Of a stretch of DNA of 64,000 bases, positions 27,515-63,609 are shown in pieces. Position numbers and translations under genes: made by a program. The DNA comes from Haloplanus salinarum (lineage in GTDB: Archaea; Halobacteriota; Halobacteria; Halobacteriales; Haloferacaceae). The notes under the pieces were generated by a model that did no database searches, had not been told where the DNA came from, and saw nothing but the letters and a program-made list of their open reading frames with translations. The stretch lies in assembly GCF_024498175.1 (NCBI RefSeq), contig NZ_CP101823.1, forward strand, positions 1,550,001-1,614,000. Reading direction: 5' to 3'. The number at the start of each line of letters is the position of its first letter. Position 1 is the stretch's first letter.

Positions 27515-28145
27515 GTGTGTAGACTATACGTCGAAAAGTGCGACTCAATCACTGAACGTAGCGTCCCCGACATGAGCGCGCTGTATGCAGCACCAACTTG
27601 CCGAACTACCCGACAGCCGTCGTAGTCGTGTGCGAGATACGGAAGATGGGTTCAGCACGAAGTCCGTGGTTGTTTCAGCATAAAGCTGGTGAATCAACTG
27701 TACAGCCCGCTGTTCACCGTTCACGATACCGTTCGAACATCTGTCTACTGGCTCCGAGAGCGCGGCCACCGACGGTCAGTATCCGAGCTGCTGTTGCTGT
27801 GAAGCCACTACTGACAGAGAGTTACCATCCAACCACGACTGCTGTCACGAGTAACCTCAAAACCCGATCAGTCGATGTGAGAGACGTGTGAAATTCCACA
27901 GCGCTCACCCCCTTGCTTTTCATTTTGGTGTAAAACATCTCGGGCTCCTCTGTTCGACTGCCCGATTCGGATTTCTCCCCTTCATTTTCGCAGGCTACTC
28001 CGAGAGCCGATCACCTCAGCGTACATCCCGAGACACGCCTGTTCGGCGCGGCATCGGTTGCCAACGATCCCTGTATTGCGACGGAGCCGCCTAGGCCTGT
28101 TACAAACGGCTCCGAACTGTCCCCCACACCGAGAATCCACATCCG
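27515..28145. other. Intergenic, possible gene relics
   Basis: 631 bp without a supported gene. Positions about 27628-27690 match an IS-end relic (gtgcgagatacgg ... gttcagcac). From about 27673 a plus-strand frame reads KLVNQLYSPLFTVHDTVRTS to a stop, which looks like the tail of an enzyme, but I cannot name it. From 27900 to 28140 I see nothing definite. Confidence 0.35.
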
Positions 28146-28964
28146 CTAGAGGTCGGCAGTCTTGAACCGGAGGTAGCCCAGCGCGACGGGAACGAACGTC
28201 CACGCGAGTAGCAGTCCAAGGGCGGCCGGCCAAGCGACATACGCGACGCCACTGTCGACGTACCGACCGGCCCGATCCACGGCGAACCCAGTCCGGACGA
28301 GCAGGTCGAAGGACTCACTCGGTGCCGCGAGGCGGACGAAGAGAGCCCAGCCGGGCATGTCGTTCGTGACTGCCGTGTCGAACCGATGGAGGATCAACAG
28401 CACCGCCGTATGGAGGTCTTCCCAGAGGACGACCGACACTAGATACGCACCGATAGTACCGACGGTCACGCGTCGACCAGTCGCTGTCGATAACGAGACG
28501 CCGACTGCCAGCCCGACGAACGCCACCCCGTACAGTACCGTTACACCGACGAACCACGGCAGCCACGGCCACGGCACGCTCCCGTTAGCGAGGACGGTGG
28601 CTACGCCGCCGGCGAGACAGAGCGCGAGCGCTGTCGGCACGACGAAAACGACACTCCGCCCGACGAATTTGCCGACGGCCACGTCCCGGCGGGAGTGTGG
28701 GACGGAGAGTGCGAGTCGGAGTTGTCCACCGGTTCGCTCCGCGAGGATCGACTTGTACCCGAGCAAGAGCGCAACGAGCGGAGTCGTCACCGCGACGACC
28801 CCGGTGAGGCTATCGATATACGTCGGGAACGAGCCGTCGTCGAGCACGAATTCGACGGCGGCGACGCCGACGAACAGGAGGATCTGAACCCCGCCGACGA
28901 TCCAGATGCCGACTGACTGGCTGGCGGCACGAACGTCCCGGAGGGCGACGTCGCGCCACGTCAC
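28146..28964 (-). CDS. ABC-2 type permease, second subunit
   Basis: 272 residues from GTG 28964 (VTWRDVALRDVRAASQSV). Six TM segments in the ABC-2 layout, with the loop YKSILAERTGGQLRLALSVP that is conserved in haloarchaeal NosY-like permeases. The GTG overlaps the stop of the preceding permease (GTGA). Its C-terminus has LGYLRFKTADL. It is paralogous to that permease, so the pair probably makes a heterodimeric membrane part for the ATPase at 29764. The substrate is unknown. Confidence 0.88.
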   Translation of the reverse strand: MTWRDVALRDVRAASQSVGIWIVGGVQILLFVGVAAVEFVLDDGSFPTYIDSLTGVVAVTTPLVALLLGYKSILAERTGGQLRLALSVPHSRRDVAVGKFVGRSVVFVVPTALALCLAGGVATVLANGSVPWPWLPWFVGVTVLYGVAFVGLAVGVSLSTATGRRVTVGTIGAYLVSVVLWEDLHTAVLLILHRFDTAVTNDMPGWALFVRLAAPSESFDLLVRTGFAVDRAGRYVDSGVAYVAWPAALGLLLAWTFVPVALGYLRFKTADL

Positions 28965-29767
28965 GCGAGGTCCCTCCACTCGAACCGGAGTACCGCTACC
29001 GACAGTGGACCGAGGAGCCAGCCGACGAAGACCGGAAGTGCCAGCGCCGGCCCGTCGTACCACGTGCCAGCCCCCCGATCGCTCGCAGCCAAGGCGGTAA
29101 CGAGCGTCTCGAAGGCGCTCCCGGGGTCGAGTTGGGCGCTAACCCGAACCGCGGTACGGATCGGCCCGTCGGTGACCCCCGCTGCCACCAGACCAGCTTC
29201 GGTCCCCGCAGTGACGGGGTCCCAGACGATAACCAGTACGAAGAGTGCGGCGACGCCGAGAACGAGTGCCCGGCGGTTCGTCGCGACCAGCGCGGATGCT
29301 GCAACGCCGATCCCGACCCAGATGGCGCCGTGGGCGACGCACAGGAGGACGAACGCCAGCAAGCGGAGGGGCTGCAGCGTTCCGAACGGGTAGACGACCA
29401 GGACACCCGCAATCACCATCCCGACGGCGATGGCGGCTCCCAGCACGCCTGCTCGGCCGACGAATCGTCCGAGTACGAGTGTCGACCGACCGTGTGGCAT
29501 CGAAAGCGCGAGCCGCAACGCGCCGGATTCGTGTTCGCGGGCGATGGCGCCGTATCCGAACAACACGCCGATAGGAGCCAGTAACGCCCCGAGCCACCCA
29601 CCGACGAAGGCGCCGAACCGACTCGTCGTGATCGGCGGGGTGCCGACGACGGGGTAGACGTACGCCGCGATGGACACGACGCCGATCAGGCCGACGAGCG
29701 CGGCCTTCGGGAGTCGGGCATCGAGTACTACTCGCCAGTCCCGACGGGCGATCACGCGCCACGTCAC
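28961..29767 (-). CDS. ABC-2 type permease, first subunit
   Basis: 268 residues from GTG 29767 (VTWRVIARRDWRVVLDARLP). Six TM segments; the loop YGAIAREHESGALRLALSMP and the following RSTLVLGRFVGR match its paralogue downstream. GTGA overlaps join it on both sides, to the ATPase and to the second permease. The longer N-terminal frame (Arg-rich) belongs to the out-of-frame end of the ATPase gene and is rejected. Confidence 0.88.
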   Translation of the reverse strand: MTWRVIARRDWRVVLDARLPKAALVGLIGVVSIAAYVYPVVGTPPITTSRFGAFVGGWLGALLAPIGVLFGYGAIAREHESGALRLALSMPHGRSTLVLGRFVGRAGVLGAAIAVGMVIAGVLVVYPFGTLQPLRLLAFVLLCVAHGAIWVGIGVAASALVATNRRALVLGVAALFVLVIVWDPVTAGTEAGLVAAGVTDGPIRTAVRVSAQLDPGSAFETLVTALAASDRGAGTWYDGPALALPVFVGWLLGPLSVAVLRFEWRDLA

Positions 29768-30675
29768 ACCCGGTCGCCTCCGGTGAACTCGACGAACATA
29801 TCCTCGAGCGACGCCTCCTCGGTGCGAAAGTTGACGACCCCGACGCCGGCGTCGTGGAGTTCGACCAGCGCGTCCATCTTCGCATCGTTCGTACACGTCG
29901 CCTCGATGGTGCCGTCGCGCTCGACCGCCGTCTCGACGCCCTCGACCCGCCCGACCGCGTCGAGGGTTTCGTCGTCGACCCGGTCGGGCGTGATGACCAG
30001 CTTCGTCCCGCCGCCGATCGCTTCACGCAACCCGGCGATGGTGTCGGTCGCGATCAGCCGACCGTTCTGGAGGATGCCAACTCGGTCACAGACCGCCTCG
30101 ACCTGCTCGAGGACGTGACTCGAGAAGAAGATGGTCGCCCCGCGGTCGGCCTCCTCGCGGAGGATGGTCCGCATCTCCGCGGCGCCGTTCGGATCGAGCC
30201 CGGTCGTCGGCTCGTCGAGGACGAGCAGGTCCGGCTCCCCGACGAGCGCCATCGCGAGCGCGAGCCGCTGACGCATCCCCTTCGAGTAGTCCGTCGCCGA
30301 GCGGGCGGCGTCGTCACGGAGTCCGACACGGGAGAGGACGTCGGCGGGGTCCTCGTCGACGTCTTTCGACCGGATCGCGTATTCGACGTGGTCGCGGCCC
30401 GAGAGTCCATCGAACGGGGCGTACCCTTCCGGCAAGACGCCGATACGTTCGCGGACTGCGACGCCGTCGTCCCGACAGTCGTGGCCGAACACCGACAGTG
30501 TGCCGTCGGTCGGCGCGACGAATCCGAGCAGGATGTCGATGAACGTCGACTTGCCCGCGCCGTTCGGTCCGAGGAAGCCGAACGTCTCGCCGGCCTCGAC
30601 GGTCAGATCGACGCGGTCGAGAGCGAGCACGTCGCCGTAGCGCTTCGAGAGGTCCGTGGCGCTAATGACGGTCAC
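29764..30675 (-). CDS. ABC transporter ATPase
   Basis: 303 residues from GTG 30675 (VTVISATDLSKRYGDVLALD). Walker A is GPNGAGKST, the Q-loop region is GVLPEGYAPFDGLSG, the signature reads DYSKGMRQRLALAMALVG, Walker B is LLVLDEPTTGLDP, and the H-loop is SSHVLEQVEAVCDR. A C-terminal domain of about 80 residues follows, as in drug- or copper-type (NosF/CcmA-like) exporters. It is the first gene of the three-gene operon. The 69-residue upstream extension in frame is not family-like. Confidence 0.92.
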   Translation of the reverse strand: MTVISATDLSKRYGDVLALDRVDLTVEAGETFGFLGPNGAGKSTFIDILLGFVAPTDGTLSVFGHDCRDDGVAVRERIGVLPEGYAPFDGLSGRDHVEYAIRSKDVDEDPADVLSRVGLRDDAARSATDYSKGMRQRLALAMALVGEPDLLVLDEPTTGLDPNGAAEMRTILREEADRGATIFFSSHVLEQVEAVCDRVGILQNGRLIATDTIAGLREAIGGGTKLVITPDRVDDETLDAVGRVEGVETAVERDGTIEATCTNDAKMDALVELHDAGVGVVNFRTEEASLEDMFVEFTGGDRV

Positions 30676-30806
30676 AGGACGTTGGGACGGGATGGCGGCC
30701 GATGAATACCCCGTGGAGGTTTCAGAGTCGGCAACACCGACACCATTGTTTGGTCGGATCTGTTGGGGGCCACGAGTACCGATTCGGGGTCGATCGGCCG
30801 TCGTCG

Positions 30807-31235
30807 CTATGCCGCGTGCGACCGGAGCGCTTGGCCGGCACGCCAGAGAAGGGTGGCAAACAGCGGAAGCAGCGCCGCACACATACTGAGCGTCAGCGTC
30901 TTCGGGACGATCCAGGGCGTCACGAACGCCATCCCGACCCCGACGAACGGGCCAACGGACACGGTGATCGTCGTGCCCACGAGCAGCCGTCGCTGGCTGT
31001 CGTCGAACTCGATGCCGTACCCACCCGTCGGCGGAATCAACAGCCCGAGCGGGAGGAGAAACAGACCGGCCCAGACGACGAGCGACAGCGAGAGGAGCGC
31101 AACCGCCGGACCGAACAGCCCTCCCGTGCCCGGCGATGGCAGCCTCACGAGCGCCCGGTAGCCGAAAGCTGCCAGTCCTGCGCCGACCGCCGCCACCGGC
31201 AGCTGGAGGGGGCCCAGTACGCGATATCCGTTCAC
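30807..31235 (-). CDS. Four-TM hypothetical membrane protein
   Basis: 142 residues from GTG 31235 (VNGYRVLGPLQLPVAAVG). Hydrophobic segments at VAAVGAGLAAFGYRALV, GPAVALLSLSLVVWAGLFLL, TTITVSVGPFVGVGMAFV and LTLSMCAALLPLFATLLW. A GYGIEFDDSQRRLLV loop lies between the second and third. It runs in the same direction as the ABC operon and ends 131 nt upstream of it. Family not recognised. Confidence 0.65.
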   Translation of the reverse strand: MNGYRVLGPLQLPVAAVGAGLAAFGYRALVRLPSPGTGGLFGPAVALLSLSLVVWAGLFLLPLGLLIPPTGGYGIEFDDSQRRLLVGTTITVSVGPFVGVGMAFVTPWIVPKTLTLSMCAALLPLFATLLWRAGQALRSHAA

Positions 31236-31412
31236 GAGTTCCCCATAGTCCGATGTTTCAAAAGCTGTCGACGCGGCGTTTCGTGGCCTGCAACAGCGTC
31301 GTGACGTGGCGTCCCCGCAGCGAGCGGAACGCGAACGACGGGCCCACGCGGGGGTTTCCGAACGAGAAACGCTGGACGACGTTTCTCACGTCCCACTCTC
31401 GACACACCACGT

Positions 31413-32150
31413 ATGGCCCTCCAGTTAGGCAAAGCGATCGGGCGTGGTGCCCGACGCTCGCTTTCGGTCAGTGGCATCGTCGCGCTCGTACTGATGATCT
31501 GTTATCAGGTCCTCTTCGTCGGGTCATTCAACGCGGTCATCGTGGACACGCTCCCATCGGAGGTTCGATCCGGCGACGCCGGGATCGGCTTCGCGCTCCC
31601 GCTATCGACCGAGGTTGCAGCCGGGGTGGCCGTCGTCGCGCTGTTGCTCGGCATCGGCATCTTTCTCGTGACCGCACGGCTGTTGGCACGTGACCTCTCC
31701 GATCTCTCGTCGCTCCCCGGGAATCTGTTCACCCGGCGTCTCGGCCGTGCGTTCCTGTCCGCGCTCGTCGTCAGCGTCGTTCTCGGAGTGGCGATCCCGA
31801 TCGGGTTCGCGTTCCTCCTCGTTCCCGGTCTGTTCCTCGCCGTGAGTCTCCAGTTCGCGGTGTTTGCCGTCGCCGTCGAAGACACGGGTCCGATCGAGGC
31901 GTTCCGTCGAAGTTGGGGCCTGGCGAGTGGGAACCGCTGGCGGCTGCTCGCACTCGTCGTTCTGTTCGGTGTCATCGGCGCTATCGGTGGGGCGGTCGGA
32001 TCGGTGTTCGCCTTCGTCTCGCCGTCCGCCGGCCAACTCGCCTCGCTCGTCATCAATTCGGTGCTCGTCATCCTCATGTACGGCATCATCGCCGACTCGT
32101 TCGTGCAGCTGCGCGGTGGATCGGCGTCCGCCACGAGTTCGCTCGCCTGA
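31413..32150 (+). CDS. Haloarchaeal DUF7847-like multi-TM protein
   Basis: 245 residues with about six TM segments. The central part has LVPGLFLAVSLQFAVFAVAV then EDTGPIEAFRRSWGLASGNR, the cytosolic motif typical of the DUF7847/DUF4013-like family of haloarchaeal membrane proteins (assignment by motif, not by search). An ALQLGKAIGRGARRSLS amphipathic N-terminus is also usual for the group. No biochemical role is known. It diverges from the gene at 30807. Confidence 0.75.
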   Translation: MALQLGKAIGRGARRSLSVSGIVALVLMICYQVLFVGSFNAVIVDTLPSEVRSGDAGIGFALPLSTEVAAGVAVVALLLGIGIFLVTARLLARDLSDLSSLPGNLFTRRLGRAFLSALVVSVVLGVAIPIGFAFLLVPGLFLAVSLQFAVFAVAVEDTGPIEAFRRSWGLASGNRWRLLALVVLFGVIGAIGGAVGSVFAFVSPSAGQLASLVINSVLVILMYGIIADSFVQLRGGSASATSSLA

Positions 32151-32393
32151 GGCGGATTTGTACCGCCGTCCCGGCAGTTTCGGACGGTGAGACAGGACTG
32201 AATCACGGATACTGCCGCGTATCTAAACTCTTCGTGAAACCTCTCCGCATCATCTGGCGGGAAAGCGGGCTTAGCGACTCGTCGCCCGGTACCCGCTCTG
32301 ATGTGACATATTCGAACGTATTCACAGTCAGCCCGTTGCTGACTGCGAAATACGGTTTGAGCATTCAATAGCCGGTGAAGGAGTCGTATCGAT

Positions 32394-33359
32394 ATGCAAA
32401 CTCGACTGCTCGTTGCCACAGCCACAGCGTTCTGTCTCGTTGCACTCGCCGGTTGTTCACAGCCCGCCGGTTCGCTCTCGATGGACTCGCTCAACGACAC
32501 GGAACTGGCCGACCACGCCAGTAGGGCCGTCTCCGAGGATGAACTAGCGGAGGAACACGAACGCGGCCCGCAGCCACACGTTCTCAGTCGGGCCGTCGAT
32601 AACGAATCCGCGACGGTCGCTGCGACGGACCCGCCCCACAAAAACAATTCGACGGTATACCGGACGGGCGACCGGTTCTACACCCTTTCGTACACGACTG
32701 TAGGCACGACGAGCGGGCGGGAACTGACCTACGGATTCGATGGAAACGCGACTACGGACGAGGCCGATCGGAACGGGTGGGCAACCGTCGCGTACGACGA
32801 CTTGCCGCCGGTCGACAGGGCGATGCTTCGGACGCCCCTGTCGGTGATAACGGCAGAGGAAGGCAGTCGGTCAAGCATCAAGGAGAGGCGAACGTACAGT
32901 CCAGCCGAACTCAACCGGTCGGTCATCGCCGACCAGCAGTACGATGCGATCAGATACGATGGAACGTTGGTCGAAGTCGATGTCGCGTCGAGCGAACCAC
33001 GCTCTCTGACCGTCTATCGGTACCAACCGAGACCCGTTGCGACGACCGCTGACGCGTACGCCGCATGTCTGCAGGACGAGTATGTGTTCGAGTTGTCGGG
33101 GCTCGATCCGAACACGCGAGAGGTTGTGAACGAGGCGGCCGACGGAACGTACCGCGCGGAGAACACCAGCGACACGGCGTTTCGATCCCTCGTTGAGACG
33201 TTCCACAGCCACACGGCGGTTTCAGCGAACACCGCGTCCGGGTCGTGGGTTACCCGATACGAGGGGCGACTCTACTGGGTCAAGCTTCGGTACACCGGCT
33301 TCGAATCCGACCGGGACTCCCGTCCGCGGGTGCGAGCCCCGGCGGCTGTCTGTTCGTGA
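32394..33359 (+). CDS. Haloarchaeal lipoprotein
   Basis: 321 residues. A 20-residue signal peptide ends in a lipobox, LVALAGC, with the lipidation Cys at 21, so the mature protein is anchored outside the membrane. The body is hydrophilic and beta-rich with recurring YDG/YRY strands (YDAIRYDGTLVEVDVASSE; PRSLTVYRYQPRP) and a C-terminal TRYEGRLYWVKLRYTGF. It resembles the many single-lipobox proteins of haloarchaea without assigned function. Confidence 0.8.
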   Translation: MQTRLLVATATAFCLVALAGCSQPAGSLSMDSLNDTELADHASRAVSEDELAEEHERGPQPHVLSRAVDNESATVAATDPPHKNNSTVYRTGDRFYTLSYTTVGTTSGRELTYGFDGNATTDEADRNGWATVAYDDLPPVDRAMLRTPLSVITAEEGSRSSIKERRTYSPAELNRSVIADQQYDAIRYDGTLVEVDVASSEPRSLTVYRYQPRPVATTADAYAACLQDEYVFELSGLDPNTREVVNEAADGTYRAENTSDTAFRSLVETFHSHTAVSANTASGSWVTRYEGRLYWVKLRYTGFESDRDSRPRVRAPAAVCS

Positions 33360-33386
33360 CCGGGGAGTGTTCGGTCGGAGGGAGTG

Positions 33387-33767
33387 TCAACTGCGTCCGA
33401 GACGGCCACGGCGTCGATACAGGTAGCACGTCAGGAGAGGAACCGAAACGAGCAATAGCGGCGAGAAGACGGCAGCCCCGAGATGTGCGAGGCCGCCGAG
33501 GCTCCACGCGATACTCGGCGACCAGTGCTCGTCGTCACCGAGTGCTCGAACGTCTGCGAGCAGGCACACAAAAACGACGAGGGCCACGAAGATACCGCCC
33601 CAGAACGAAGCCACTGCGAGGACGAACGACGCGATGCCAGTAGCGACGTTCGGATCACCGCCGGACGAGGACACGACAATAAACGTCCGCGAACCGAAGT
33701 CGGAGAGGAGCGTCGCCACCGCAACGAGGGGGAACAGGGCGACACCGTACCACCACGAACTCGACAT
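33387..33767 (-). CDS. Four-TM hypothetical membrane protein
   Basis: 126 residues from ATG 33767 (MSSSWWYGVALFPLVAVATL). Four hydrophobic segments, the last ending in a basic stop-transfer tail YLYRRRGRLGRS. The helix order and this tail resemble haloarchaeal SHOCT-less DUF-type membrane proteins, but I cannot name a family. It converges with the lipoprotein gene (27-bp gap). The MITE-like element begins 78 bp upstream of its start. Confidence 0.65.
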   Translation of the reverse strand: MSSSWWYGVALFPLVAVATLLSDFGSRTFIVVSSSGGDPNVATGIASFVLAVASFWGGIFVALVVFVCLLADVRALGDDEHWSPSIAWSLGGLAHLGAAVFSPLLLVSVPLLTCYLYRRRGRLGRS

Positions 33768-33844
33768 CGTGTTAATCGAGGAAGAAATAGTAGTCACACA
33801 GAGAGGCGTCGTGTCTCAGGAACATTAGTAGTGTAGAGTGCGTT

Positions 33845-34013
33845 CTATAGTAGCGATTGATACTGTTTATTGTAAGTCATTACCGGTGGTTCGCCGAGAC
33901 GGTCCGGCGAACCACCGGCAACCAGTTACAATAATCCGTATGAAACTGTTTGCACAGCCGACCGTACGCAGTACTGCGATCGGCTGTGTAATGACTTTCA
34001 ATCGCTACTATAG
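33845..34013. mobile_element. MITE-like element with perfect 16-bp inverted ends
   Basis: 169 bp flanked by ctatagtagcgattga and its exact reverse complement (33998-34013). Inside are two strong palindromes: ccggtggttcgccg/cggcgaaccaccgg (about 33882-33917), and a second around acagccga...tcggctgt (about 33955-33988). There is no coding frame. The first 85 bp or so of the interior recur at 57757-57843. Confidence 0.75.
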
Positions 34014-34636: not shown

Positions 34637-36298
34637 TTACCGTACCGAATCGTAGAGCCGGATCGTTACGAGACTACCTTCGGGGTCGTTCTCCCGAAAC
34701 TGGATCTCCCCTCCTAACTGAGTGACTGCCCAGTTGACGAACCAGAGTCCGATACCCTGGCCGTGGTCGAGTTGTGTCTCGGTTCCGGCAGCGAGCATCT
34801 CTCGTTCCCGCTCGGGAATCCCTGGTCCGTTATCCGCGACGGAGAGTTCGACCGTCCCGTCCGACACCTCCCGAACACTGAGTTCGACGCGGGGCACGTC
34901 CGCAGTCGTGTGTTCGAGTGAATTTTCCACCAGCTCGAAAAGCACCTGTCGGAGTACGGCTCGATGAGAGGAGATAGTCACCTCGGCGGGGTGGACGAGC
35001 GAGATGTCGGCCGATTCGTTCTCGGATCGGAACTGATCCACGACAGTACTGGCTACGTCAGTCAGATCGACCGATTCCGGTGAATCGGTACTCTCGGTCA
35101 TGACTGCCTCCGCCTCTCTGACCTTGTTACTCAGTTCGAGAAGGTCGGTCGCGCGCTCTCGAATGCCGGTCCGTAGCTCCTCGTCGTCGACGTGGTCGGC
35201 GTACGCGAGCACGACGTCCAAGTCGTTCCGCACGTTGTGTCGGAGGATACGATTGAGAACCGTGAGTCGCTGTTCTCTGGTCTCTCGGTCGGTGATGTCT
35301 CGGAAGAGCACGGTTCTGGCGACGGGATTACCCTCATCGTTGGTCGTGGCTTCCTCGACCGCGGAGACGCTAAATTGGAACTGTCGACGCCCTTCGGACG
35401 TCCGAAGTGCGACTGTTCCCGTCGCACCTGTGTGGAATTCGGTCCCTTCGAGTCCGTCGATGACAGACTGAACCGGTTCCCCGATCATCCCCTCCGTGGA
35501 ACCGTCGAACAACTCTGCCGCCGTCTCGTTAATATCGAGGACGTGATCGTCCCAGTCGAGGACGACGAGCGCTTCTTGGAGGGTTTCGACTACGCGTGTC
35601 CGTGCGACGTAGTCGGCTTTCGGGAACCCGGTCAGTACTGGGTACCGTCGTATCGCAGCGGTCAGAAAAGCGCCCGACAGGAGCAGACCGAGCGTCGTGC
35701 CGCCGATCAGTGAGGTATTGGACTCCGCAACGGAGAGCAGGCTCGGAGCCGCAACGCCGGCAGTCAGTACGGTTATCTGTGTGCTCGACACCCGAGGATG
35801 ACCCCAACTGAGATCGATCAGTAGATACGTCGCATACAGGGCATACAGGAACAACAGAAAGCCGTACAGGATCGTCCATCCGAGCGCGAGTCCGAGTATC
35901 GGTCCGACGACCGTTTTGGAGGCATCACTAGCGAGAGCGACCGCACCGATCACCACCGGTAACACGATGCCAGACAGCAGCACGATCCGCTTCCGTGTCG
36001 CCATGATTCCGCGGCCGGCATAGCTGAGTGCATAGGCGATCCAAGCCACGGGGAGAAACAGTAGGGCACCGAATTGCACTACGTCGAAAAGCGACTCGAG
36101 GAAGCGCACGGTCGCCACGCCGACGACCGTGGCCCCAAGCGACGAGGCTGCCCAGACAGTTAGCGTGATCGAGAGTACGAGAAACGGTTCCGCACTGGGC
36201 TGGTCTCTGGACCGGGAAGCTCGCCAAGTTGTCCAACACAAAAGGGCGGACGCCAGAGCCTTGAGTACCAGCGTAGTCAGTGTAGTACCGGAAATCAT
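34637..36298 (-). CDS. 7TM-PAS histidine kinase (kinase-1, intact copy)
   Basis: 553 residues. Residues 1-215 are a histidine-kinase N-terminal seven-TM region (LFLPVAWIAYALSYAGRG; VVIGAVALASDASKTVVG). A PAS domain follows (about 230-340), then a HisKA with His near 353 (RILRHNVRNDLDVVLAYADH), an N-box (ELVENSLEHT), G1 (VADNGPGIPERE) and G2 (GQGIGLWFVNWAVTQLGGEI). A truncated, divergent copy of its first 140 residues lies at 60282-60713. The upstream spacer is also shared with that locus in inverted order. Ligand and partner unknown. Confidence 0.92.
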   Translation of the reverse strand: MISGTTLTTLVLKALASALLCWTTWRASRSRDQPSAEPFLVLSITLTVWAASSLGATVVGVATVRFLESLFDVVQFGALLFLPVAWIAYALSYAGRGIMATRKRIVLLSGIVLPVVIGAVALASDASKTVVGPILGLALGWTILYGFLLFLYALYATYLLIDLSWGHPRVSSTQITVLTAGVAAPSLLSVAESNTSLIGGTTLGLLLSGAFLTAAIRRYPVLTGFPKADYVARTRVVETLQEALVVLDWDDHVLDINETAAELFDGSTEGMIGEPVQSVIDGLEGTEFHTGATGTVALRTSEGRRQFQFSVSAVEEATTNDEGNPVARTVLFRDITDRETREQRLTVLNRILRHNVRNDLDVVLAYADHVDDEELRTGIRERATDLLELSNKVREAEAVMTESTDSPESVDLTDVASTVVDQFRSENESADISLVHPAEVTISSHRAVLRQVLFELVENSLEHTTADVPRVELSVREVSDGTVELSVADNGPGIPEREREMLAAGTETQLDHGQGIGLWFVNWAVTQLGGEIQFRENDPEGSLVTIRLYDSVR

Positions 36299-36769
36299 CG
36301 TTCCATATCTCGGACAGCGATTTGGATGTTATGTCGACTGAATACAGCGATGGCTACTCGATTCGGTCTCGAAATCGGAAGGCCGATGCACGGAGCGATG
36401 CACGATTAGCGACGAACGCGTTTGGGGAGTTGGGGACCTAGCTCACCCGCTGGGGGACGGAGCGGGCATAGTGACGATGAGTCCCGAAATTAATGGATGG
36501 AGCCCCTGTGTTTCACTATCGGAAACTGACGCCCTGAAGCGGTTCGTATCGCTTCGAAGTGTGTCGAACAGATGAGACGCCACTATCGAGGAGGTTCCCA
36601 TCCAACGGGGGGTGAACGCCCGGCGTGGACTGAACTCGGTGGCGCTTAGGGATAACTGGCCGAGGGTGTAGATGTCGCCCCGGACGAAGCCGTGGACGCT
36701 ACCGGCGTCCCGGGAGCACGGATCGACGATCGGAGCCGGTCCTAATAGTTCCCTCACAAATACTACTGA
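36299..36769. other. Spacer shared with locus B (inverted)
   Basis: 471 bp between divergent kinase-1 and the kinase-2 relic. The reverse complement of about 36340-36500 aligns by eye with 60072-60230, e.g. tcacccgctgggggac at 36443-36458 against gtcccccagcgggtga at 60121. The equivalent spacer in locus B is 473 bp. It should hold the promoters of both original kinases. Confidence 0.7.
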
Positions 36770-37243
36770 ATGGACCGTAAGGGCGTTCTACCGGAGAGAT
36801 CCGCTCGCGATACGGGTGAAGCTCTTTGCTGTCTCGTTGCTCATTACCGCCGTTATCGTCGCTGGGGGACGGCGATCGTCAGTCGGGTCTTCGATCCAGT
36901 CACGAACGAACAGTTGGCCCCGGTCGAAGCCAACGCGGAACTCGAGGCGGAGAGTCTCGCCAGATGGTTCGAGGGTGAACAGGAGTCGGGTTCTTGCTGA
37001 GCAGGGGGGGTGATCCTCTTCGGTCCAATCACCTCGATCAGACGACGGTCACGTCAGGCGAAAGCAGTCGCCGAAGTGGACCTGACGGCGGAAATTCCGG
37101 ACGAAAACCGAATCGGGGAGGTCGGGGAGCTCGGAACCAGTCCCCTCGGAACGTGTGTATAGCGAAACGACGACGGCACGACGGTCAATATTACGCTCGC
37201 CGATGTCACCGACCAAACTGAGAACGGGGACCGAGTGGGATAG
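36770..37243 (+). pseudogene. Relic of kinase-2 (copy of 57892-59808)
   Basis: Begins MDRKGVLPERSARDTG, shifts frame to KLFAVSLLITAVIVAGG, shifts again to NEQLAPVEANAELEAESLAR, and stops after WFEGEQES. It then resumes with FGPITSIRRRSRQAKAVAEV and LTAEIPDENRIGEVGELGTS (HAMP region), reaches a TAG, and ends with DDGTTVNITLADVTDQTENG. Each piece matches the intact kinase at 57892-59808 in order, with the sensor domain and the whole HisKA/HATPase core deleted. It cannot be functional. Confidence 0.88.
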
Positions 37244-37357
37244 CACCAGTAGCTGAGACCCGTCGGGAGTCGGCTCCTCGTCGTCGATCGATCGCGTCCG
37301 TCGCTGAAAGGGGCGCGACGATTTTTAATATCCGGGAATGGGGCTCGTCATCCGTCA

Positions 37358-37691
37358 CTACGACTGCTCGGCCGCTCCGAACTGCACGACGAGTTTCTCG
37401 GCTGTGAGTGCATAGATTGTCATCTCTCGACCCTTTACCGAGTACCACGTGTCGATCGGTTCGACGAGGTCGTTCTCTTCGAGGCGCCGCAAGTAATGAT
37501 GGACGTTCTGTATCGACTCTCTCCGCGATCTCGGAGGTCGTCTTCGGGTCGCCGTCCAGCGCCCCCAGAATCGACCTCCGAACGCGTCCCCGCGACCGAG
37601 CGACCGTGACCGCCTCACCGGTCGGGAGAGATGAAGCCTGCACGACTGCACGTTCAAGCCACGCCGCTGAGGGGGACGGGTTCGGATACAA
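37358..37691 (-). pseudogene. Relic of the wHTH gene (copy of 57397-57744)
   Basis: One frame gives ILGALDGDPKTTSEIAERVD, the next SIQNVHHYLRRLEENDLVEP and IDTWYSVKGREMTIYALTAE, matching the intact wHTH at 57397-57744 almost residue for residue. The frame change lies where the intact gene has a tandem gtcgatac gtcgatac and this copy has a single unit, an 8-bp slippage deletion. The N-terminus is also divergent. Confidence 0.88.
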
Positions 37692-37788
37692 CTACCCGAA
37701 AATCACACCTCATTTGCGGCTGACGCCCGATCACCGACGATGCGTCCGAAATTATATACACGACCTATCACAACCAATCAGTAGCTGT

Positions 37789-52899: not shown

Positions 52900-53199
52900 T
52901 TACGATCACGGGGCCAGCACTCCCGATAGCATCCGCCCTGACGCTCGGTGGCGTCGTCGTTTCCGGTGTCGTTCGGCGGAGTCAGCGTCCGAACGGCGTC
53001 CCCGGCAACTCGAAACGGGGAACCACGGGACGCTAACCCGATGTTTCCGAGTCAGAGTCAGGTGGGGAATAATAAACACGCGTCGGATCCAAGAGGCACG
53101 TATGAGTCGCGTCCGACTTCGCTCCCACCGGAGGCGTCTTCACCGGCTCCCGAGGCTGGTGGTCCCGCGACGGTCGTACGGGAGGACGACGGGGGACCG

Positions 53200-54393
53200 A
53201 TGACCGACGAATGTACTGCGGCGATCCCATTGGAGGCGTTTCCGGATCCCGTGCTCGCCTATGCCGTAGACGGTGGTGAGGCCCGCATCACGACGACGAA
53301 CGAGGCCTTCGAGCGGCGGTTCGGGGATACTTCGTCCGACGCGCACGTCTCGACGGTATTCGAGCGATTTAGTCACCGTACTGCGACCGGCGACCGGGAT
53401 CCGATAACCCACGTCGTTCGGGGTGATCGTGTCGGGATCTATCTCGACGGGAACGGGAATCGAGGGGCGTTTTTCCTGCGGGTGGTCCCCTCGGACGAGG
53501 ACGCCGGATATCTCGTCTTTTCGGACCTACAGCAGTGTCCCGCTATCGAGGAGATGCCCGCCGTCGACCAAGTCAGCAGCGTGATCAGCCACGATCTCCG
53601 TAACCCGCTCGACGTCGCCAAGGCACACCTCCAAGCGGCGCGGGAAACAGGGGAGCCGGAACACTTCGAGTCGGTCGCCGACGCGCACGATCGGATGGAA
53701 CGGATCATTCGCGACGTCCTCACTCTCACACGGGGGGACGCCGTCGTGGACCCGTCGGAACGAGTCTCGATCGAAACTGCGGCGACGGACGCGTGGCAAT
53801 CGGTCGATACTGGGGGCGCAGTGCTGGAACTCGTCGGATCACTCCCGACCGTCACCGCCGACTCCGACCGCGTTCGACGGCTGTTCGAGAATCTGTTCCG
53901 GAACGCGGTGAAGCACAACGCCACCGATAGCCGGAGACAGTACGGCGACAGCGGGGAGCATGGCTCCACGAGCCATCGGTCGCAGACCCCCGATGACGGC
54001 ACGGAGCATGACTCTGCGGCCATCCCGACGCAGTCCGAGGGTTCGGTGACAGACGACTCGGACACACCCTCGCCGAACACACGCGAGCACGGGGGAAAGC
54101 GGCGTCCGGGACCCCGAGAGCAGTCCCCTGGCGACGGGACGACTCCCGAGAAGAGCGTGACGATCACTGTAGGATCGTTAGGGGACGGGTTCTACGTCGC
54201 CGACGATGGCAGGGGTATCCCCACAGGGGAACGGGAGACGGTTTTCAAGCCGGGATACTCGACGATGGCCGGTGGAACCGGACTCGGTCTCGCGATCGTC
54301 GAACGGATCATCGTCGCACACGACTGGAACATAACCCTCACTGCAGCCGACTGTGGTGGGGCACGGTTCGAGATCCGATTCGAACACCGATGA
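53200..54393 (+). CDS. PAS histidine kinase with hydrophilic insert in the ATPase domain
   Basis: 397 residues from ATG 53200 (MTDECTAAIPLEAFPDPVLA). A PAS-like domain (about 10-115) is followed by HisKA with His near 131 (SVISHDLRNPLDVAKAHLQA) and HATPase_c with N-box NLFRNAVKHNATD, G1 VADDGRGIPTGE and G2 GGTGLGLAIVERIIVAHDWN. Between the N-box and the strand before G1 there is a roughly 75-residue Ser/Thr/His/Asp-rich insert (about 243-320) without predicted structure. It is soluble. The gene for a Bat-type activator follows 22 nt downstream. The upstream 84-codon extension is rejected as Pro/Ser-rich. Confidence 0.88.
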   Translation: MTDECTAAIPLEAFPDPVLAYAVDGGEARITTTNEAFERRFGDTSSDAHVSTVFERFSHRTATGDRDPITHVVRGDRVGIYLDGNGNRGAFFLRVVPSDEDAGYLVFSDLQQCPAIEEMPAVDQVSSVISHDLRNPLDVAKAHLQAARETGEPEHFESVADAHDRMERIIRDVLTLTRGDAVVDPSERVSIETAATDAWQSVDTGGAVLELVGSLPTVTADSDRVRRLFENLFRNAVKHNATDSRRQYGDSGEHGSTSHRSQTPDDGTEHDSAAIPTQSEGSVTDDSDTPSPNTREHGGKRRPGPREQSPGDGTTPEKSVTITVGSLGDGFYVADDGRGIPTGERETVFKPGYSTMAGGTGLGLAIVERIIVAHDWNITLTAADCGGARFEIRFEHR

Positions 54394-54414: not shown

Positions 54415-55998
54415 GTGGGGAACGAAGGGACGAACGCGGTGGTTCGAGCCATGGATGATCGGCTGGAACGGGCGCCGGTCGGCGTCCTCGAGGCCTCGAC
54501 CGATGGGACCGTCTTGGACAGCAACGAGCGCGCCCGGACACTGATCGACGCCGCTGATCCGGCTGGAGCCACGCTCGCCGAGGTGTTTCCCCGGTCCGTC
54601 GACGGCACCCTCGTGACCGCGTTCGAGGGTGAGTCGGTCACTGAGATGGAATTCGAGGAGTATTATCCAGGGCCCGACAGGTGGTTCGCCGTCTCCATCG
54701 TTGCGCTCGATGAGGGAGGGGCGGTCTATCTCCGAGACGTGACCGAGAGGCGGCGCGAGAGGCGGTCTCTCGAACGGCTACGACAGGAGCGCAAACGGAC
54801 GGAGCTCATCGACGACGTGCGTTCGGATATCCTCGCGGCACTCGTCAACGCGACCTCTCGTGAGGAAATCGCCGAAACGATCTGTCGAGGGCTCGGTGAG
54901 ACCGACCTCTACGAGTTCGCTTGGGTTGGAGAACGCGACGTGGGAGGCGACGACCTCGCCGTCCGCGCCGTTGCGGGTGAGACCGGCGATATCTTCGGCG
55001 CCGTTCGTGACGCGGTCGGCGATGAGACGGTGACGACGCCCGAAGAGCGCGCAGTCAGGAGCGGTCAACTGCAGGCTGTCCAGCCACTCACCGACAGTGC
55101 CGCGGTTCCTAAATCGGTCCGGAGGGCCGGCTTTGCCGACGGCGTCCAGTCGGCACTGCACATTCCGGTCGTATACGGGCCGAACGTCCACGGAGTCGTC
55201 GGCGTCTATGCGAGTGGCACCGAGGCGTTCTCCGAACGGGAGCGGGCTAGCTTCGAGACGCTGGGGGAGGTCGCTGGGTTCGCAATCACTGCCGTTCGGA
55301 ATCGGAATCTGCTGCTTTCGGACAGCGTCGCAGAGATCACCTTCGAACTCGGTGACGGCTCGCTGCTGGCGCGACTGAGTCGGACGCTCGACTCGACGCT
55401 GAAGCTCGAAGGGATGGTTCCACAGGCCGACGACGCGTTGCTCTGTTTCGTCTCGGTCGAAGGCGACGGAATCGGGCGTATCGACCGGGAGACCGAGAGG
55501 ATGGAACCGATCGATCGGACACGAGTTATCGACGAATCCGAGTCCGGTGGGACCGTCGAACTCACCATCCGCGGCTCGACGCCGTTGCTGGCCATCTCCT
55601 CGCTCGGAGGTACCGTTCGGCGTGCCAGCTTCGACGATGGAGCGGGACGTCTCGTCGTGGACCTTCCCCCGGACGGTGACGTCCGCCGTATCGTGGATAC
55701 GGTGGGTCGGGAGTACGACGCGGAGTTCGTCTCGAAGACGGAGCGGAAACGCTCCGTGACGACCGCCCGTGAGTTCCGCGACGAACTGGACGACCGGCTG
55801 ACACAGCGACAACGGGTCGTCCTGCAAACCGCATATTTCGCCGACTACTTCGAGTCACCTCGTGGAAGCACGGCCGAAGAAGTCGCTGCCTCACTGGATA
55901 TCACCGGGTCGACGTTGCTCCATCACCTGCGTGCCGCCCAGCGGAAGCTTCTGGATGCCTATCTCGACGGACAGGGGCGGACATCCGAGAGCGGATGA
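54415..55998 (+). CDS. Bat-type transcription activator (PAS-GAF-HTH_10)
   Basis: 527 residues from GTG 54415 (ATG 54451 is an alternative that starts right at the PAS). PAS: ERAPVGVLEASTDGTVLDSN to VYLRDVTERRRERRS. GAF (about 145-300): ETICRGLGETDLYEFAWVGE, SALHIPVVYGPNVHGVVGVY. Then comes the bacterioopsin-activator (BAT) middle region (about 305-455), and a C-terminal HTH_10: LTQRQRVVLQTAYFADYFES and VAASLDITGSTLLHHLRAAQ. It is a DNA-binding sensor-regulator. It sits 22 nt behind a PAS kinase, so both may belong to one pathway, although it has no receiver domain. Confidence 0.9.
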   Translation: MGNEGTNAVVRAMDDRLERAPVGVLEASTDGTVLDSNERARTLIDAADPAGATLAEVFPRSVDGTLVTAFEGESVTEMEFEEYYPGPDRWFAVSIVALDEGGAVYLRDVTERRRERRSLERLRQERKRTELIDDVRSDILAALVNATSREEIAETICRGLGETDLYEFAWVGERDVGGDDLAVRAVAGETGDIFGAVRDAVGDETVTTPEERAVRSGQLQAVQPLTDSAAVPKSVRRAGFADGVQSALHIPVVYGPNVHGVVGVYASGTEAFSERERASFETLGEVAGFAITAVRNRNLLLSDSVAEITFELGDGSLLARLSRTLDSTLKLEGMVPQADDALLCFVSVEGDGIGRIDRETERMEPIDRTRVIDESESGGTVELTIRGSTPLLAISSLGGTVRRASFDDGAGRLVVDLPPDGDVRRIVDTVGREYDAEFVSKTERKRSVTTAREFRDELDDRLTQRQRVVLQTAYFADYFESPRGSTAEEVAASLDITGSTLLHHLRAAQRKLLDAYLDGQGRTSESG

Positions 55999-56112: not shown

Positions 56113-56691
56113 TCACATCTCCCCGCGATCGATTTCGTCGAACTGAGCGAGGATCTCGTCGTCGGTCAACAGTCGTCTGGCTCGGGTTTCGAGTCGCTCC
56201 GCCTGCTCCGCCACCGCGACGAACCGTTCGTGCTCGCGGTGCGTCTCGGAGTCCAGTTCGGCTTCGAGCACCGCTCGCTTGGCCTCGGCACTGAAATACG
56301 CCCCGAGCGTTTCGTACGCGAGGATCCGTCGCTGTTGATCGATAACCGCGCGAACGTCCTCGCGGTCGACCGGCTTGCAGAGATAATCGTCGAACGGCAT
56401 ATCGAGTACTTCGATTCCGGGATCGACCGCGGTTACCATGACCACCCGTCCGTCGTACCCACGCGCAACCAGTTCCGACAGCACGTCGTCACCCGACATC
56501 CCCGGCATGTGGCGATCCAGAAGGACGATATCGACCGGCGTATCCGCGACTGCCGACAGCGCGGCCTCCCCGCTGTACACCGTCTCGACGTCACAGTAGC
56601 CTCGCAGCCGTAGCGCATACGCGTCTGCAACCTCCTGTTCGTCGTCGACGACGAGCGTATGCACGTCCGCCGCGCTATCGTTTCCGGACAT
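56113..56691 (-). CDS. Response regulator with HalX domain
   Basis: 192 residues from ATG 56691. Receiver: acidic pair in TLVVDDEQEVADAYALRLRG, phospho-acceptor Asp in VDIVLLDRHMPGMSGDDVLS, Thr/Ser switch in VVMVTAVDPG, and Lys in YLCKPVDREDV. The C-terminal 75 residues are a HalX domain (YETLGAYFSAEAKRAVLEAE, a helical output of unknown target). It is the only stand-alone response regulator in the window despite eight kinases, so it may serve several of them. It is divergent from a wHTH gene. Confidence 0.92.
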   Translation of the reverse strand: MSGNDSAADVHTLVVDDEQEVADAYALRLRGYCDVETVYSGEAALSAVADTPVDIVLLDRHMPGMSGDDVLSELVARGYDGRVVMVTAVDPGIEVLDMPFDDYLCKPVDREDVRAVIDQQRRILAYETLGAYFSAEAKRAVLEAELDSETHREHERFVAVAEQAERLETRARRLLTDDEILAQFDEIDRGEM

Positions 56692-56842
56692 CTGTTTCGA
56701 TTGCGTACGTGGTGTCGAGGCTGCAGCCACATAACTGGTCATCTTCTCCGAGCAACGCCATCTGCACTCCTAGAGTCCCGAGTGCCGTGCGGTCTGCATG
56801 CTTGCCCCCGATATCCAGTACGAACGGCGTGCTCCTAGGAGT
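56692..56842. promoter_or_regulatory. Divergent control region with palindrome ctcctaggag
   Basis: 151 bp between the HalX regulator and the wHTH gene. A perfect 10-bp palindrome ctcctaggag (56832-56841) abuts the ATG at 56843 and may serve as operator and as ribosome binding site; a related half-site actcctagag lies at about 56766. Confidence 0.4.
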
Positions 56843-57190
56843 ATGTCCGTCAACCCGACCCAGAAGTCGAAACGACACTCCGATTGGACGGCAGATGTCG
56901 ATCTCTCGGCGACCGAACTGTTCGAACTCTTCGGGGACGAATACACGCGCCGTGTGTACGAGACGATCACGGAGCAGCCACGAAGCGGCCGTGCCGTCGC
57001 CGAGGCAGCGGACGTCTCGCGGGCAACGGCATACCGCCGCCTCAACGACCTTCGTGATGCGGGCCTCGTTCGCACTGAGATGATGATCTGTGACGACGGC
57101 CATCACAAGGAACGGTTCGAGCCCGTGGCTACGTCGGTCTCTCTCTCCCTCGGCGATGGAATCGGAGCCACGGTCGACGTCGGAGACTGA
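56843..57190 (+). CDS. ArsR-type winged-HTH regulator
   Basis: 115 residues from ATG 56843. The winged HTH spans most of the chain: TELFELFGDEYTRRVYETIT, EQPRSGRAVAEAADVSRATA, YRRLNDLRDAGLVRTEMMIC, and then a beta-rich tail (HHKERFEPVATSVSLSLGDG) as in haloarchaeal proteins of this subfamily. It is divergent from the HalX response regulator and is probably linked with it functionally. A 15-codon upstream extension is rejected because of the regulatory palindrome there. Confidence 0.85.
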   Translation: MSVNPTQKSKRHSDWTADVDLSATELFELFGDEYTRRVYETITEQPRSGRAVAEAADVSRATAYRRLNDLRDAGLVRTEMMICDDGHHKERFEPVATSVSLSLGDGIGATVDVGD

Positions 57191-57396: not shown

Positions 57397-57744
57397 ATGA
57401 CGAGTGCTTTCCCACACCAGAGTCACGTCGAGTACAGTCCTCACGATCGAGCGGACTTCACCGTCTCCAGTGATTCGCAGGTCGATGCCCTCCAAGCGCT
57501 GTCGTCGGGGACGGCACAAGCGATTTTGGGGGCGCTGGAGGGCGAACCGAAGACGACCTCCGAGATCGCGGAGAGTGTCGATACGTCGATACAGAACGTC
57601 CACCACCATCTGCGACGCCTCGAGGAAAACGACCTCGTCAAGCCGATCGATACGTGGTACTCGGTCAAGGGCAGAGAGATGACCGTCTATGCGCTTACCG
57701 CCGAGAAACTCGTGGTAACGTTCGAGGCCGCCGAGCAATCGTAG
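57397..57744 (+). CDS. ArsR-like wHTH regulator (intact copy of the duplicated gene)
   Basis: 115 residues: LSSGTAQAILGALEGEPKTT, SEIAESVDTSIQNVHHHLRR, LEENDLVKPIDTWYSVKGRE, MTVYALTAEKLVVTFEAAEQ. A decayed copy lies at 37358-37691. It converges on kinase-2 with a hairpin repeat in between (the decayed locus lacks this hairpin). A TATA-like gcatataccta at about 57306 gives a leader of some 60 nt. Conservation of the DTWYSVKGREM motif groups it with haloarchaeal regulators located beside sensor kinases or transport genes. Confidence 0.88.
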   Translation: MTSAFPHQSHVEYSPHDRADFTVSSDSQVDALQALSSGTAQAILGALEGEPKTTSEIAESVDTSIQNVHHHLRRLEENDLVKPIDTWYSVKGREMTVYALTAEKLVVTFEAAEQS

Positions 57745-57891: not shown

Positions 57892-59808
57892 CTATCTCGC
57901 CCGGTTCCCGTTCTCGGTTCGCTCCGTGAGATCGGCGAGCGTTATTTCGACTGTCGTGCCGTCCTCGGTTTCGAACGAGAGATCACCGTCTAGCGCATCG
58001 ATACCCCACTTGAGTTGCCAGAGTCCGAGTCCACGCCCGTGTTGGAGGGAACTCTCGGTTCCGGCCGCCAGCGATTCGAGTTCGGCCACTGGAATACCGG
58101 GGCCGTCGTCGCTGATAGCGATTCTGTACCCGTCGGCTGTCGACGTTATCGAGACAGTGACACTCGACTCCGCGTATCCGACGGCATTTTCCAACGGACT
58201 CGTGAGTGCCGTTCGCAGTATCTCGGCGTCGGTTCGGAGCGTCGCCGTCGGCGGAAACTCCGTGTTGACAGTGACGTCGTCGGATGCGGTCCGGGAGAGC
58301 AGCTCGGAAACCACAACGGTGATATCGACCGTCGCCGGATCGGGGTCGCGAGCCATCAGACGGTCGATCCGTCGGGCGCGAGTGCCGATCGACGCCAGCC
58401 GATCCGTCGCTGCCAAGACGGCCTCGGCGTCGTCGCCCTCCGTTCGGTCGGCCAGCTGCTCCGCGTGGCTTCTGATAACGTCGAGCCGATTCCTGAGGTT
58501 GTGTCTGAGCAGTCGGTTGAACACCTCCAGGCGTTGTTCGCGCTGCTCGCGTTCCTCGACGAACCGCTCCAGGTCGTCACGCATATCCGCCATCGCCGTT
58601 CCGACGGGCCCCGGGATCTCTTCGTCGAGAGCCGTATCGTCGAACTCTCGACGGGCGATCTTTTCGGCCTGTTCGGTGATCGTTTCGATATACGCCTTCG
58701 TTCTGTGGAGGCTGGTTCTCAGCTGTCCGACCTCGTCGATCCGGTTGCCGTCCGGAATCTCCGCCGTCAGGTCACCTTCGGCGATCGCTTCCGCCTGACG
58801 CGACAGCCGCCTGATCGAACTGATCGGACCGAAGTGAATCATCCCGCTGATCAACAAGAAGCCGACAGCGGTGAGTCCGATCAGCACCGTCAAGTCGGTC
58901 TGGACCTGGTCGGTCACGGCGAGTGCCGTCGATGTGGGAACTTCCTTGACGACGACCCAGTTGACACCGTCGCTCGGGACGCTGTGGTATCCCCGCACCT
59001 CCGTGTCGTCCAGTTCGGCACCGCTGATCGGCGCGAACTGGTTCGGTCGCTCCTCGATCCGGGATTCGACCTCGGTAACGGTGGCCTCGCCCTTGTACGG
59101 ATGAAACTCGTTTGGACTGTTCTTCTCGAACATGACGTACCCACTCACGCCGCCGAGAACGACGGTACTCGTGTCGTTGGTCGCGTCGGCCGCCGCCGCG
59201 ACCCGAGTGCTGGGATGGTACTCGCCGATCAACACGTGATCGCCATCACGCGTCGGTGAGGCGATCGCCACGGACATGTTACCCTGGTCCAGGTAGACCC
59301 ACGAGACGAGCGTCTCCGTCGGGCTGTCGAACCGGAACGCAACCTCCTCGCCGGAGGCAGTTTGCCCCCAGTCGATCGCGGTCGCAGCCAGCGGCTCGCC
59401 GGCTAGCCCGTCACTGCTCGCGACGATCCGCTCCGTCGTGCCGTTCGACGGCTGCTCCGTCGGCCGCTCGACGACGTGGAGGCTAACGAGTTCGTCCGAC
59501 GTTCGGTTGAGTTCCCTGTCGAGGGTGGTTTCGGTTCGTGTCCGGTTCGACGGATCGATGCCTCGATGTGAGGACAGGAGCCGAATCGACTCCTGTTCGC
59601 CCTCGAACCACCGGGCGAGACTCTCCGCCTCGAGTTCCGCGTTGGCTTCCACGGAGTCTAACTGTTCTTCCGTGACCCGATCGGACACTTGTCCTGCGAT
59701 CGCCGACCCGCCAGCGACGATCACGGCAGTAATGAGCAACGAGACAGCAAAGAGCTTCACCGCGTATCGTGAGCGGATGCCCGCCGGCAGAAGTTCCTTG
59801 CTGTCCAT
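57892..59808 (-). CDS. Cache-HAMP histidine kinase (kinase-2, intact copy)
   Basis: 638 residues. TM1 (VKLFAVSLLITAVIVAGGSA) is followed by an extracellular sensor domain of about 280 residues, dCache-like (VASSDGLAGEPLAATAIDWG; HSVPSDGVNWVVVKEVPTST), then TM2 (LTVLIGLTAVGFLLISGMIH) and HAMP (GPISSIRRLSRQAEAIAEGD). HisKA has His near 435 (NRLLRHNLRNRLDVIRSHAE), and HATPase has G1 SDDGPGIPVAEL and G2 QHGRGLGLWQLKWGIDALDG. The N-box is weak (LTSPLENAVGYAES). A shredded copy lies at 36770-37243. The upstream 473-bp spacer is shared with that locus. Confidence 0.92.
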   Translation of the reverse strand: MDSKELLPAGIRSRYAVKLFAVSLLITAVIVAGGSAIAGQVSDRVTEEQLDSVEANAELEAESLARWFEGEQESIRLLSSHRGIDPSNRTRTETTLDRELNRTSDELVSLHVVERPTEQPSNGTTERIVASSDGLAGEPLAATAIDWGQTASGEEVAFRFDSPTETLVSWVYLDQGNMSVAIASPTRDGDHVLIGEYHPSTRVAAAADATNDTSTVVLGGVSGYVMFEKNSPNEFHPYKGEATVTEVESRIEERPNQFAPISGAELDDTEVRGYHSVPSDGVNWVVVKEVPTSTALAVTDQVQTDLTVLIGLTAVGFLLISGMIHFGPISSIRRLSRQAEAIAEGDLTAEIPDGNRIDEVGQLRTSLHRTKAYIETITEQAEKIARREFDDTALDEEIPGPVGTAMADMRDDLERFVEEREQREQRLEVFNRLLRHNLRNRLDVIRSHAEQLADRTEGDDAEAVLAATDRLASIGTRARRIDRLMARDPDPATVDITVVVSELLSRTASDDVTVNTEFPPTATLRTDAEILRTALTSPLENAVGYAESSVTVSITSTADGYRIAISDDGPGIPVAELESLAAGTESSLQHGRGLGLWQLKWGIDALDGDLSFETEDGTTVEITLADLTERTENGNRAR

Positions 59809-60281
59809 TCGAGGCCAATTTCTTCGAGCACGCTAATAAGAAACACGCCTGTTTGCCGAGGCGTACTCGCTGGAATCCGGGAGTACCTCTGCCTTCGTCC
59901 GGACCGCCCACCGTCCCATCGGTGAGCCACTCCGAAGGGGTACTGAACTCGGACCATCCACGCGTTCGCCCCGCCGGTGGCTGGATCCAGTTCCGTGACG
60001 GCGTCCACCCCCATCGGACACCTCTGGGCGAGACGGACCGTTTCGAGATGGAGTTTCCGGGAGTGATACGGAGGGGTTCCATCTATTAGTTTCGGGAGCC
60101 ACGGTCCCTACGCCCGCCCAGTCCCCCAGCGGGTGATCGGCGTCCCCGGCCCTCCAAACACGTTCGTCGCTACTCGTGCGTTGCCCCGTGTATCGGCCCG
60201 CTGACGTCGGAAATCGAACCGAGCAGCAACCACCGTATCCAACCGCGACAACGGCCAACTCGTAGGCCGAGGCGTCGAACG
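59809..60281. other. Spacer shared with locus A (inverted)
   Basis: 473 bp between kinase-2 and the kinase-1 relic. The block 60072-60230 aligns by eye with the reverse complement of 36340-36500. On the minus strand cttattag lies about 25-30 nt upstream of kinase-2 and cctaatag lies at the same place upstream of the kinase-2 relic, a likely conserved promoter element. Confidence 0.65.
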
Positions 60282-60713
60282 GTGGTTCCCGTGCTGACGC
60301 TGGTGCGCACTGCTCCGGCATCCGTCCTGTTGTCATGGACGTCTTGGAGGGCCTACCGATCCGGAGCGCAGCCCAACGCGGACCCGTTTCTGTTGCTGGT
60401 CACCACGCTGACTCTCCGGGCCGTCCTCTCGCTTGAGGCCACGGCGATAGAGGTAGCGACCGTTGGTTTCCTCGAGCCGTTCTTCGACGTAGCGCGACTC
60501 GGCACCGTGTCGTTGCTGCCCGTGGCTTGGATCGTCTACGCACTCAGCTATGCCGGCCGCGGAGCCGTGGGAACACGGGGGCGGCTCGTATCCCTGTCCG
60601 GTATCGTCTTGCCGGTAGTGATCAGTGCCATCGCCCTCGCCAGTGATGCCTCCGAAGCGGTCGTCGGCCGAGTGCCTCGGTGCTTGCCCCCGGGCCGGTT
60701 TACGGTTCCGTAA
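60282..60713 (+). pseudogene. 5' relic of kinase-1 (copy of 34637-36298)
   Basis: 143 codons matching the seven-TM N-terminus of kinase-1: LLSWTSWRAYRSGAQPNADP against LLCWTTWRASRSRDQPSAEP, LLPVAWIVYALSYAGRGAVG, LSGIVLPVVISAIALASDAS. It leaves the family after EAVVGR and soon stops; PAS, HisKA and HATPase are all missing. A short TM protein could be made, but signalling is lost. Confidence 0.88.
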
Positions 60714-60875
60714 GCCGACGGGACGACACGGTACGGGTTCCCACCTCGTGAGAACACGCTAGCACCACTTTAGTGACGCTCTTTTACAGTCGGTTGTGGA
60801 CGTGACCGCTGTGTCACGGTTTTCCTGCCGCACGCCGATAGGAAATCCGGCAAAAGGGACACACCGTAGAAAGAA

Positions 60876-63449: not shown

Positions 63450-63609
63450 CCCCCCGCGTGGGCAACCCCGAACGTCGTCCCGATTTCGGTCTCCGTATTT
63501 AACGCGCTACTCCTGCCGGGCGTCGACGACACCGGGAGAGCTGTTCCTTGAGGCGTGTTCTCGACCGAAGGAACGCCGCCCTCAAGACAACGTGGCGTGA
63601 AGTAGTGGG
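63450..63609. promoter_or_regulatory. Intergenic with a TATA-like box
   Basis: 160 bp; ccgtatttaacgcg near 63494-63507 is TATA-like but lies over 100 nt before the next start. Confidence 0.3.

Follow-up and report, generated by a model that had tools for sequence, protein, structure and literature searches.

How does a genome come to hold the same signalling genes twice, in mirror order, with each copy retaining what the other has lost? This question is raised by a 64,000-nucleotide stretch of Haloplanus salinarum DNA (NZ_CP101823.1, positions 1,550,001 to 1,614,000), hereafter the window, in which locus A (34.6-37.6 kb) and locus B (57.4-60.7 kb) form such a pair. An earlier note on this DNA proposed an inverted duplication, after which selection kept one of each gene. 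In contrast, we consider it probable (at about 0.82) that A and B are two lineages of one seven-gene two-component cluster, joined by interspecies transfer and not by duplication in place. The cluster comprises a histidine kinase (HK), a Bat-like regulator, a REC-HalX response regulator, two wHTH proteins, kinase-2 and kinase-1. A mirror-image pair made of parts from different species is easily misread as duplication followed by subfunctionalisation.

Two homologous loci with complementary losses

Comparison of A with the minus strand of B by BLASTN gave a match of 573 bits over 1.1 kb at 72.6% identity, together with blocks at 83%, 79% and 78%, and since 50 Markov-shuffled controls reached at most 31.9 bits, chance similarity is ruled out. 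The homologues lie on opposite strands, and kinase-1, spacer, kinase-2 and wHTH follow one another in mirror order, as had been noted before. The two kinases are transcribed divergently from a common intergenic region of ~470 bp, and the lengths first given for it, 471 bp at A and 473 bp at B, agree with the start codons that set them. At A this region probably carries the promoters of both kinases. Kinase-1 is complete only at A, and kinase-2 and the wHTH are complete only at B, such that the inactivation of the two loci is complementary (Table 1). The description of B in the earlier note stands, with kinase-2 and the wHTH intact and kinase-1 cut short; by our comparison the homologous part of the latter runs to ~130 codons. 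Its description of A, with an intact kinase-1, kinase-2 in scraps and a frameshifted wHTH, has to be amended, as the 5' end of the wHTH is deleted too. The three genes that it took as the unit are indeed homologous at A and B, but the homologous unit is larger, B being contiguous with a four-gene block, here termed block Q.

Gene conversion between A and B was rejected, as piecewise comparison revealed no stretch with raised A-B identity. An inversion of the A-B interval was likewise rejected as the cause of the mirror order, as segment X (37.6-42.7 kb) retains the orientation relative to flank P that it has in the relative G001.

Table 1. Features of loci A and B and their surroundings (window positions)
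Feature	Position	Strand	Remarks
Flank P, ABC-transporter ATPase and membrane protein genes	27982..33847		Beside A only; 90.8% to G001, 92.9% to G004
Kinase-1, intact, locus A	34637..36298	-	HisKA_7TM - PAS - HATPase_c histidine kinase, 553 aa; Pfam
471-bp intergenic region, locus A	36299..36769		85% to G001 spacer
Kinase-2 pseudogene, locus A	36770..37283	+	5', middle and 3' pieces; two ~0.7 kb deletions, frameshifts
wHTH pseudogene, locus A	37353..37575	-	Lacks its first ~41 codons; frameshift from an 8-bp slippage deletion
Deletion junction, locus A	37575..37576		G001 has ~7.5 kb between these two bases
PAS-HisKA-HATPase histidine kinase, block Q gene 1	53039..54393	+	Pfam; block at B only
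Bat-like regulator PAS-GAF-BAT-HTH_10, block Q	54415..55998	+	Pfam
Response regulator REC-HalX, block Q	56113..56742	-	Pfam
Second wHTH protein (wHTH2; HTH_20/TrmB-like), block Q	56798..57190	+	Pfam
wHTH, intact, locus B	57397..57744	+	HTH_20, ArsR-like, 115 aa; Pfam; dN/dS 0.12-0.22
Kinase-2, intact, locus B	57892..59808	-	HAMP - HATPase_c histidine kinase, 638 aa; Pfam; dN/dS 0.14-0.17
473-bp intergenic region, kinase-2 to kinase-1 fragment, locus B	59809..60281		Set by start codons
Kinase-1 fragment, locus B	60282..60713	+	In-frame homology over codons 9-132, then truncated
Separate multidomain kinase gene and upstream region	60734..63453	+	Abuts truncation; no homology to cluster; G010 orthologue (84%) at other place

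Predicted functions

Both kinase-1 and kinase-2 combine an open frame with a HATPase_c domain and a sensor or HAMP part in Pfam, and we class them as histidine kinases; NCBIfam has no specific name for either. The wHTH of B is ArsR-like, with HTH_20/HTH_5 at 51.6 bits against a cut-off of 27, and does not reach the NCBIfam metalloregulator cut-off. Haloarchaeal signalling typically involves components of this kind, with membrane sensor kinases beside REC-HalX and Bat/wHTH proteins (PMC5847659). The membrane kinase-1 and the HAMP kinase-2 are predicted to sense signals and to act with the HalX and Bat/wHTH proteins, and gene order suggests a place for the regulators downstream of both kinases.

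A third relative of kinase-1, 57% identical, lies ~12.6 kb past the window (L040 9569-14235; G000 C1:1623569-1628238, G000 being this genome). The membrane-protein gene of 31.4-32.2 kb has a copy beside it, in an arrangement as in flank P.

The undivided cluster in related genomes

A search for genomes with a single undivided locus had been suggested, and three Haloplanus relatives carry one (G001, G004 and G010, the last being Haloplanus ruber R35), in the order HK, Bat-like regulator, REC-HalX, wHTH2, wHTH, kinase-2, kinase-1. Flank P comes next after kinase-1 in these clusters, directly beyond it in G001 and G004, and P and Q bracket one single locus in all three genomes. Relative to this arrangement, B (53.04-60.7 kb) holds all but kinase-1, and A holds only kinase-1 and the far flank.

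At A, ~7.5 kb of the G001 sequence is gone, namely the 5' part of the wHTH, the HK-Bat-HalX-wHTH2 block and 3.1 kb more: window positions 37163-37575 align with G001 1310638-1310208, and positions 37576-42725 with G001 1302708-1297554. With block Q and the start of the wHTH both absent, A is a decayed copy minus the whole left part of the cluster. G001 is also the reference for the two internal deletions of ~0.7 kb in kinase-2 of A.

Block Q (53.04-57.19 kb), in turn, lies beside B only and is single-copy in the genome. Its nucleotide identity to five relatives is 81-83%, and no relative stands clearly closer to B and Q than the others do; ordinary genes of the genus are mostly 79-90% identical, a baseline taken from this genome at 2.30 Mb because a stretch at 800-810 kb was swamped by repeats. 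Kinase-2 of B is 87-89% identical to those of G001, G004 and G010 in amino acids. The borders of B lie near 53021 on the left and within ~40 bp on the right, at 60694-60734, where the match of the kinase-1 fragment to A fades into unrelated sequence. No donor lineage for B was found among the relatives compared, nor an empty site, the G010 orthologue of the gene at 60.7-63.5 kb having another location and different neighbours.

The two kinases need not be linked, as the earlier note had suspected. Copies of kinase-2 occur in Halorubrum halodurans (86% identity), on a plasmid of Halorientalis marina (83%) and elsewhere, and neither a close kinase-1 nor a wHTH was detected next to them in the flanks examined; G005 and G006 carry kinase-1 without an intact kinase-2. 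Of the eight loci of the Haloplanus clade, four have a broken kinase-2 (A, G005, G006C1 and G006C3), two a broken wHTH and one, B, a broken kinase-1. G006 holds two kinase-1 genes in intact form but none of kinase-2 from this clade; a 52% relative is retained. The broken kinase-2 of G006C3 adjoins an IS605-type TnpB gene; in G006 (L032 11478-12638), kinase-2 stops after codon 553, directly followed on the opposite strand by a gene of the TnpB/IS605 OrfB type.

In G004, flank P is 93% identical to the window and kinase-1 only 80%, and identity falls sharply at one point (34585/34587). This step is likely an interspecies recombination breakpoint and another sign of exchange.

Repeats and surroundings

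The window looks like a variable region, with many kinase genes and repeats and a G+C content of 61%, compared with 62-72% for seven stretches elsewhere in this genome. A near-palindromic repeat of 90 nt lies at 33854-33943 and again at 57754-57843, with arms of 40 nt that are 83% complementary; the two sites are 97% identical. Dozens of copies occur in this genome, G001, G003 and G006, with few in G010 and none found in three other genera, and the element looks like a MITE of Haloplanus. Adjoining it at 33941-34010 is a 70-nt repeat, of which six more identical copies lie elsewhere in the genome, and both fall within a 163-bp insertion relative to G001, G004 and G006. A further dispersed repeat of 200-600 bp, with copies 65-83% alike, is present at 8159-8361, 19027-19369 and 51014-51313 and many times in Haloplanus genomes.

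Decay, timing and selection

All the surviving genes tested, namely kinase-1 at A (dN/dS 0.16-0.26) and the wHTH and kinase-2 at B, are under purifying selection. The kinase-1 fragment of B has a dN/dS of 0.31-0.44 to relatives, where intact copies span 0.11-0.55, and its 124 codons contain no frameshift, which indicates that constraint lasted until recently. In the tree of the kinase-2/wHTH scraps, the end branch of A (0.083) has roughly double the length of its counterparts in G001 (0.038) and G006C3 (0.044), which indicates that decay of the A scraps covers much of that branch. Plausibly, the decay of A came before the truncation of B.

One intact copy of each gene is left, as the earlier note had observed; that these form one functional set split over ~23 kb is a prediction. 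That selection, through dosage or cross-talk, kept exactly one of each gene once the copies had met would be compatible with a meeting by transfer, and both this outcome and the purifying selection on the survivors are in keeping with it. However, such selection is unnecessary, since kinase-2 is broken at half of the eight loci, more often than the wHTH or kinase-1, and G006 has lost it outright while keeping two copies of kinase-1. The complementarity seen here amounts to a few deletion events, and for this reason carries little statistical weight and is weak evidence for selection. We regard this explanation as possible but rather unlikely.

Another reading sees in the seven-gene cluster a mobile signalling module that a cell cannot hold in two full versions, divergent copies being trimmed to one set whenever they meet; this strikes us as unlikely. 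If it were true, G006 would be a second instance, with an A-type locus that lacks the wHTH and Q and a divergent locus that supplies both.

Phylogeny of the two loci

Duplication within the genome would make A and B sisters. In the kinase-1 tree, A groups instead with G001, G006C3 and G005 (support 100/99 for the 5' part and 100/100 for the full gene) and the B fragment falls outside. In the scraps tree, A groups with G001 and G006C3 (91/97). The AU test rejects A and B as sisters for kinase-1 (p=1.7e-5) and for the kinase-2/wHTH scraps (p=5.6e-4), so they are not each other's closest relatives, as two copies left by reciprocal loss should be. All of these trees contain few sequences, and the kinase-1 tree that includes B has ~400 columns; B takes no firm position among the Haloplanus copies. 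The origin by duplication within this genome therefore fails, and the comparison with relatives points to separate acquisitions, the very outcome that the earlier note had set against its own proposal.

The clade that contains A also contradicts the species tree, for which the rpoB region served as a stand-in: rpoB joins this genome to G010 (100/100), and a clade of G000, G001, G006 and G005 is rejected. Accordingly, the lineage of A has moved between species, and A is a xenologue, its clade uniting it with other species in conflict with the species tree. The dS values agree, with kinase-1 of A at 0.21 to G006C3, 0.23 to G001 and 0.54 to G010, and the rpoB dS between this genome and G006 (0.38) is above the first of these. 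Between A and B the kinase-1 dS is 0.53, equal to between-species distances. The rpoB dN/dS values of G005 and G013 were left out as a frame artefact.

None of the gene trees of kinase-1, kinase-2 and Q agrees with rpoB, and in part they also conflict among themselves; for example, Q pairs G001 with G006C1 and kinase-2 pairs G001 with G006C3. Such conflict is expected from exchange and argues against an ancient duplication before Haloplanus diversified, whose paralogues were long kept and then lost singly in most species. While at least two related loci do occur in some genomes (G001, G004 and G006), no genome was found with a complete A-type plus a complete B-type copy, and P and Q lie on either side of one locus in the undivided clusters; we thus consider an ancient duplication improbable. 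A duplication within this lineage with later reciprocal loss, for which the inverted orientation, similar spacer lengths and complementary losses might speak, is very improbable indeed, as kinase-1 of A is 91-93% identical in amino acids to that of G001 and G006C3 and 88% to that of G005, as its 5' part is only 74% identical to B in nucleotides, and as the AU test, under the models used, rejects the pairing in two separate parts of the locus.

Discussion

We believe that A and B are xenologues: they are not sisters, and interspecies transfer would be the route by which they came together. In the model that we propose, A and its flanks would derive from the lineage common to G001, G006 and G005. 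At A, a deletion of ~7.5 kb would have taken the start of the wHTH together with the HK-Bat-HalX-wHTH2 block, and kinase-2 would have fallen to additional deletions and to frameshifts. B is a divergent copy, whose homology ends inside kinase-1 where an unrelated gene starts. The outcome is one intact copy per gene, with kinase-1 at A and the other six at B. Haloplanus thereby offers full, split and kinase-2-less natural variants of a defined signalling cluster, which could be used to ask which two-component parts truly depend on each other.

Reciprocal gene loss after duplication is known from whole-genome duplications. As in that process, each of A and B retains what the other has lost; unlike in that process, the two do not stem from a duplication in this genome. 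A closer parallel is found in the transcription factors of E. coli, among which xenologous paralogues, that is, regulators gained via transfer instead of duplication, have been described (PMC2395238). Here too there are two homologous sets, and the trees place them with other species and not with each other, whereas the present case concerns a whole archaeal multi-gene cluster of which both copies are partly destroyed in a complementary manner. Similarly, the domain types and the style of neighbourhood match those in a census of haloarchaeal two-component clusters with HisKA_7TM kinases, REC-HalX proteins and Bat-type regulators (PMC5847659). In contrast to the tandem duplication of near-identical neighbours in that census, A and B are diverged, inverted and about 20-23 kb apart. 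The pair is a clean example of a known process, the ordinary shuffling of genes.
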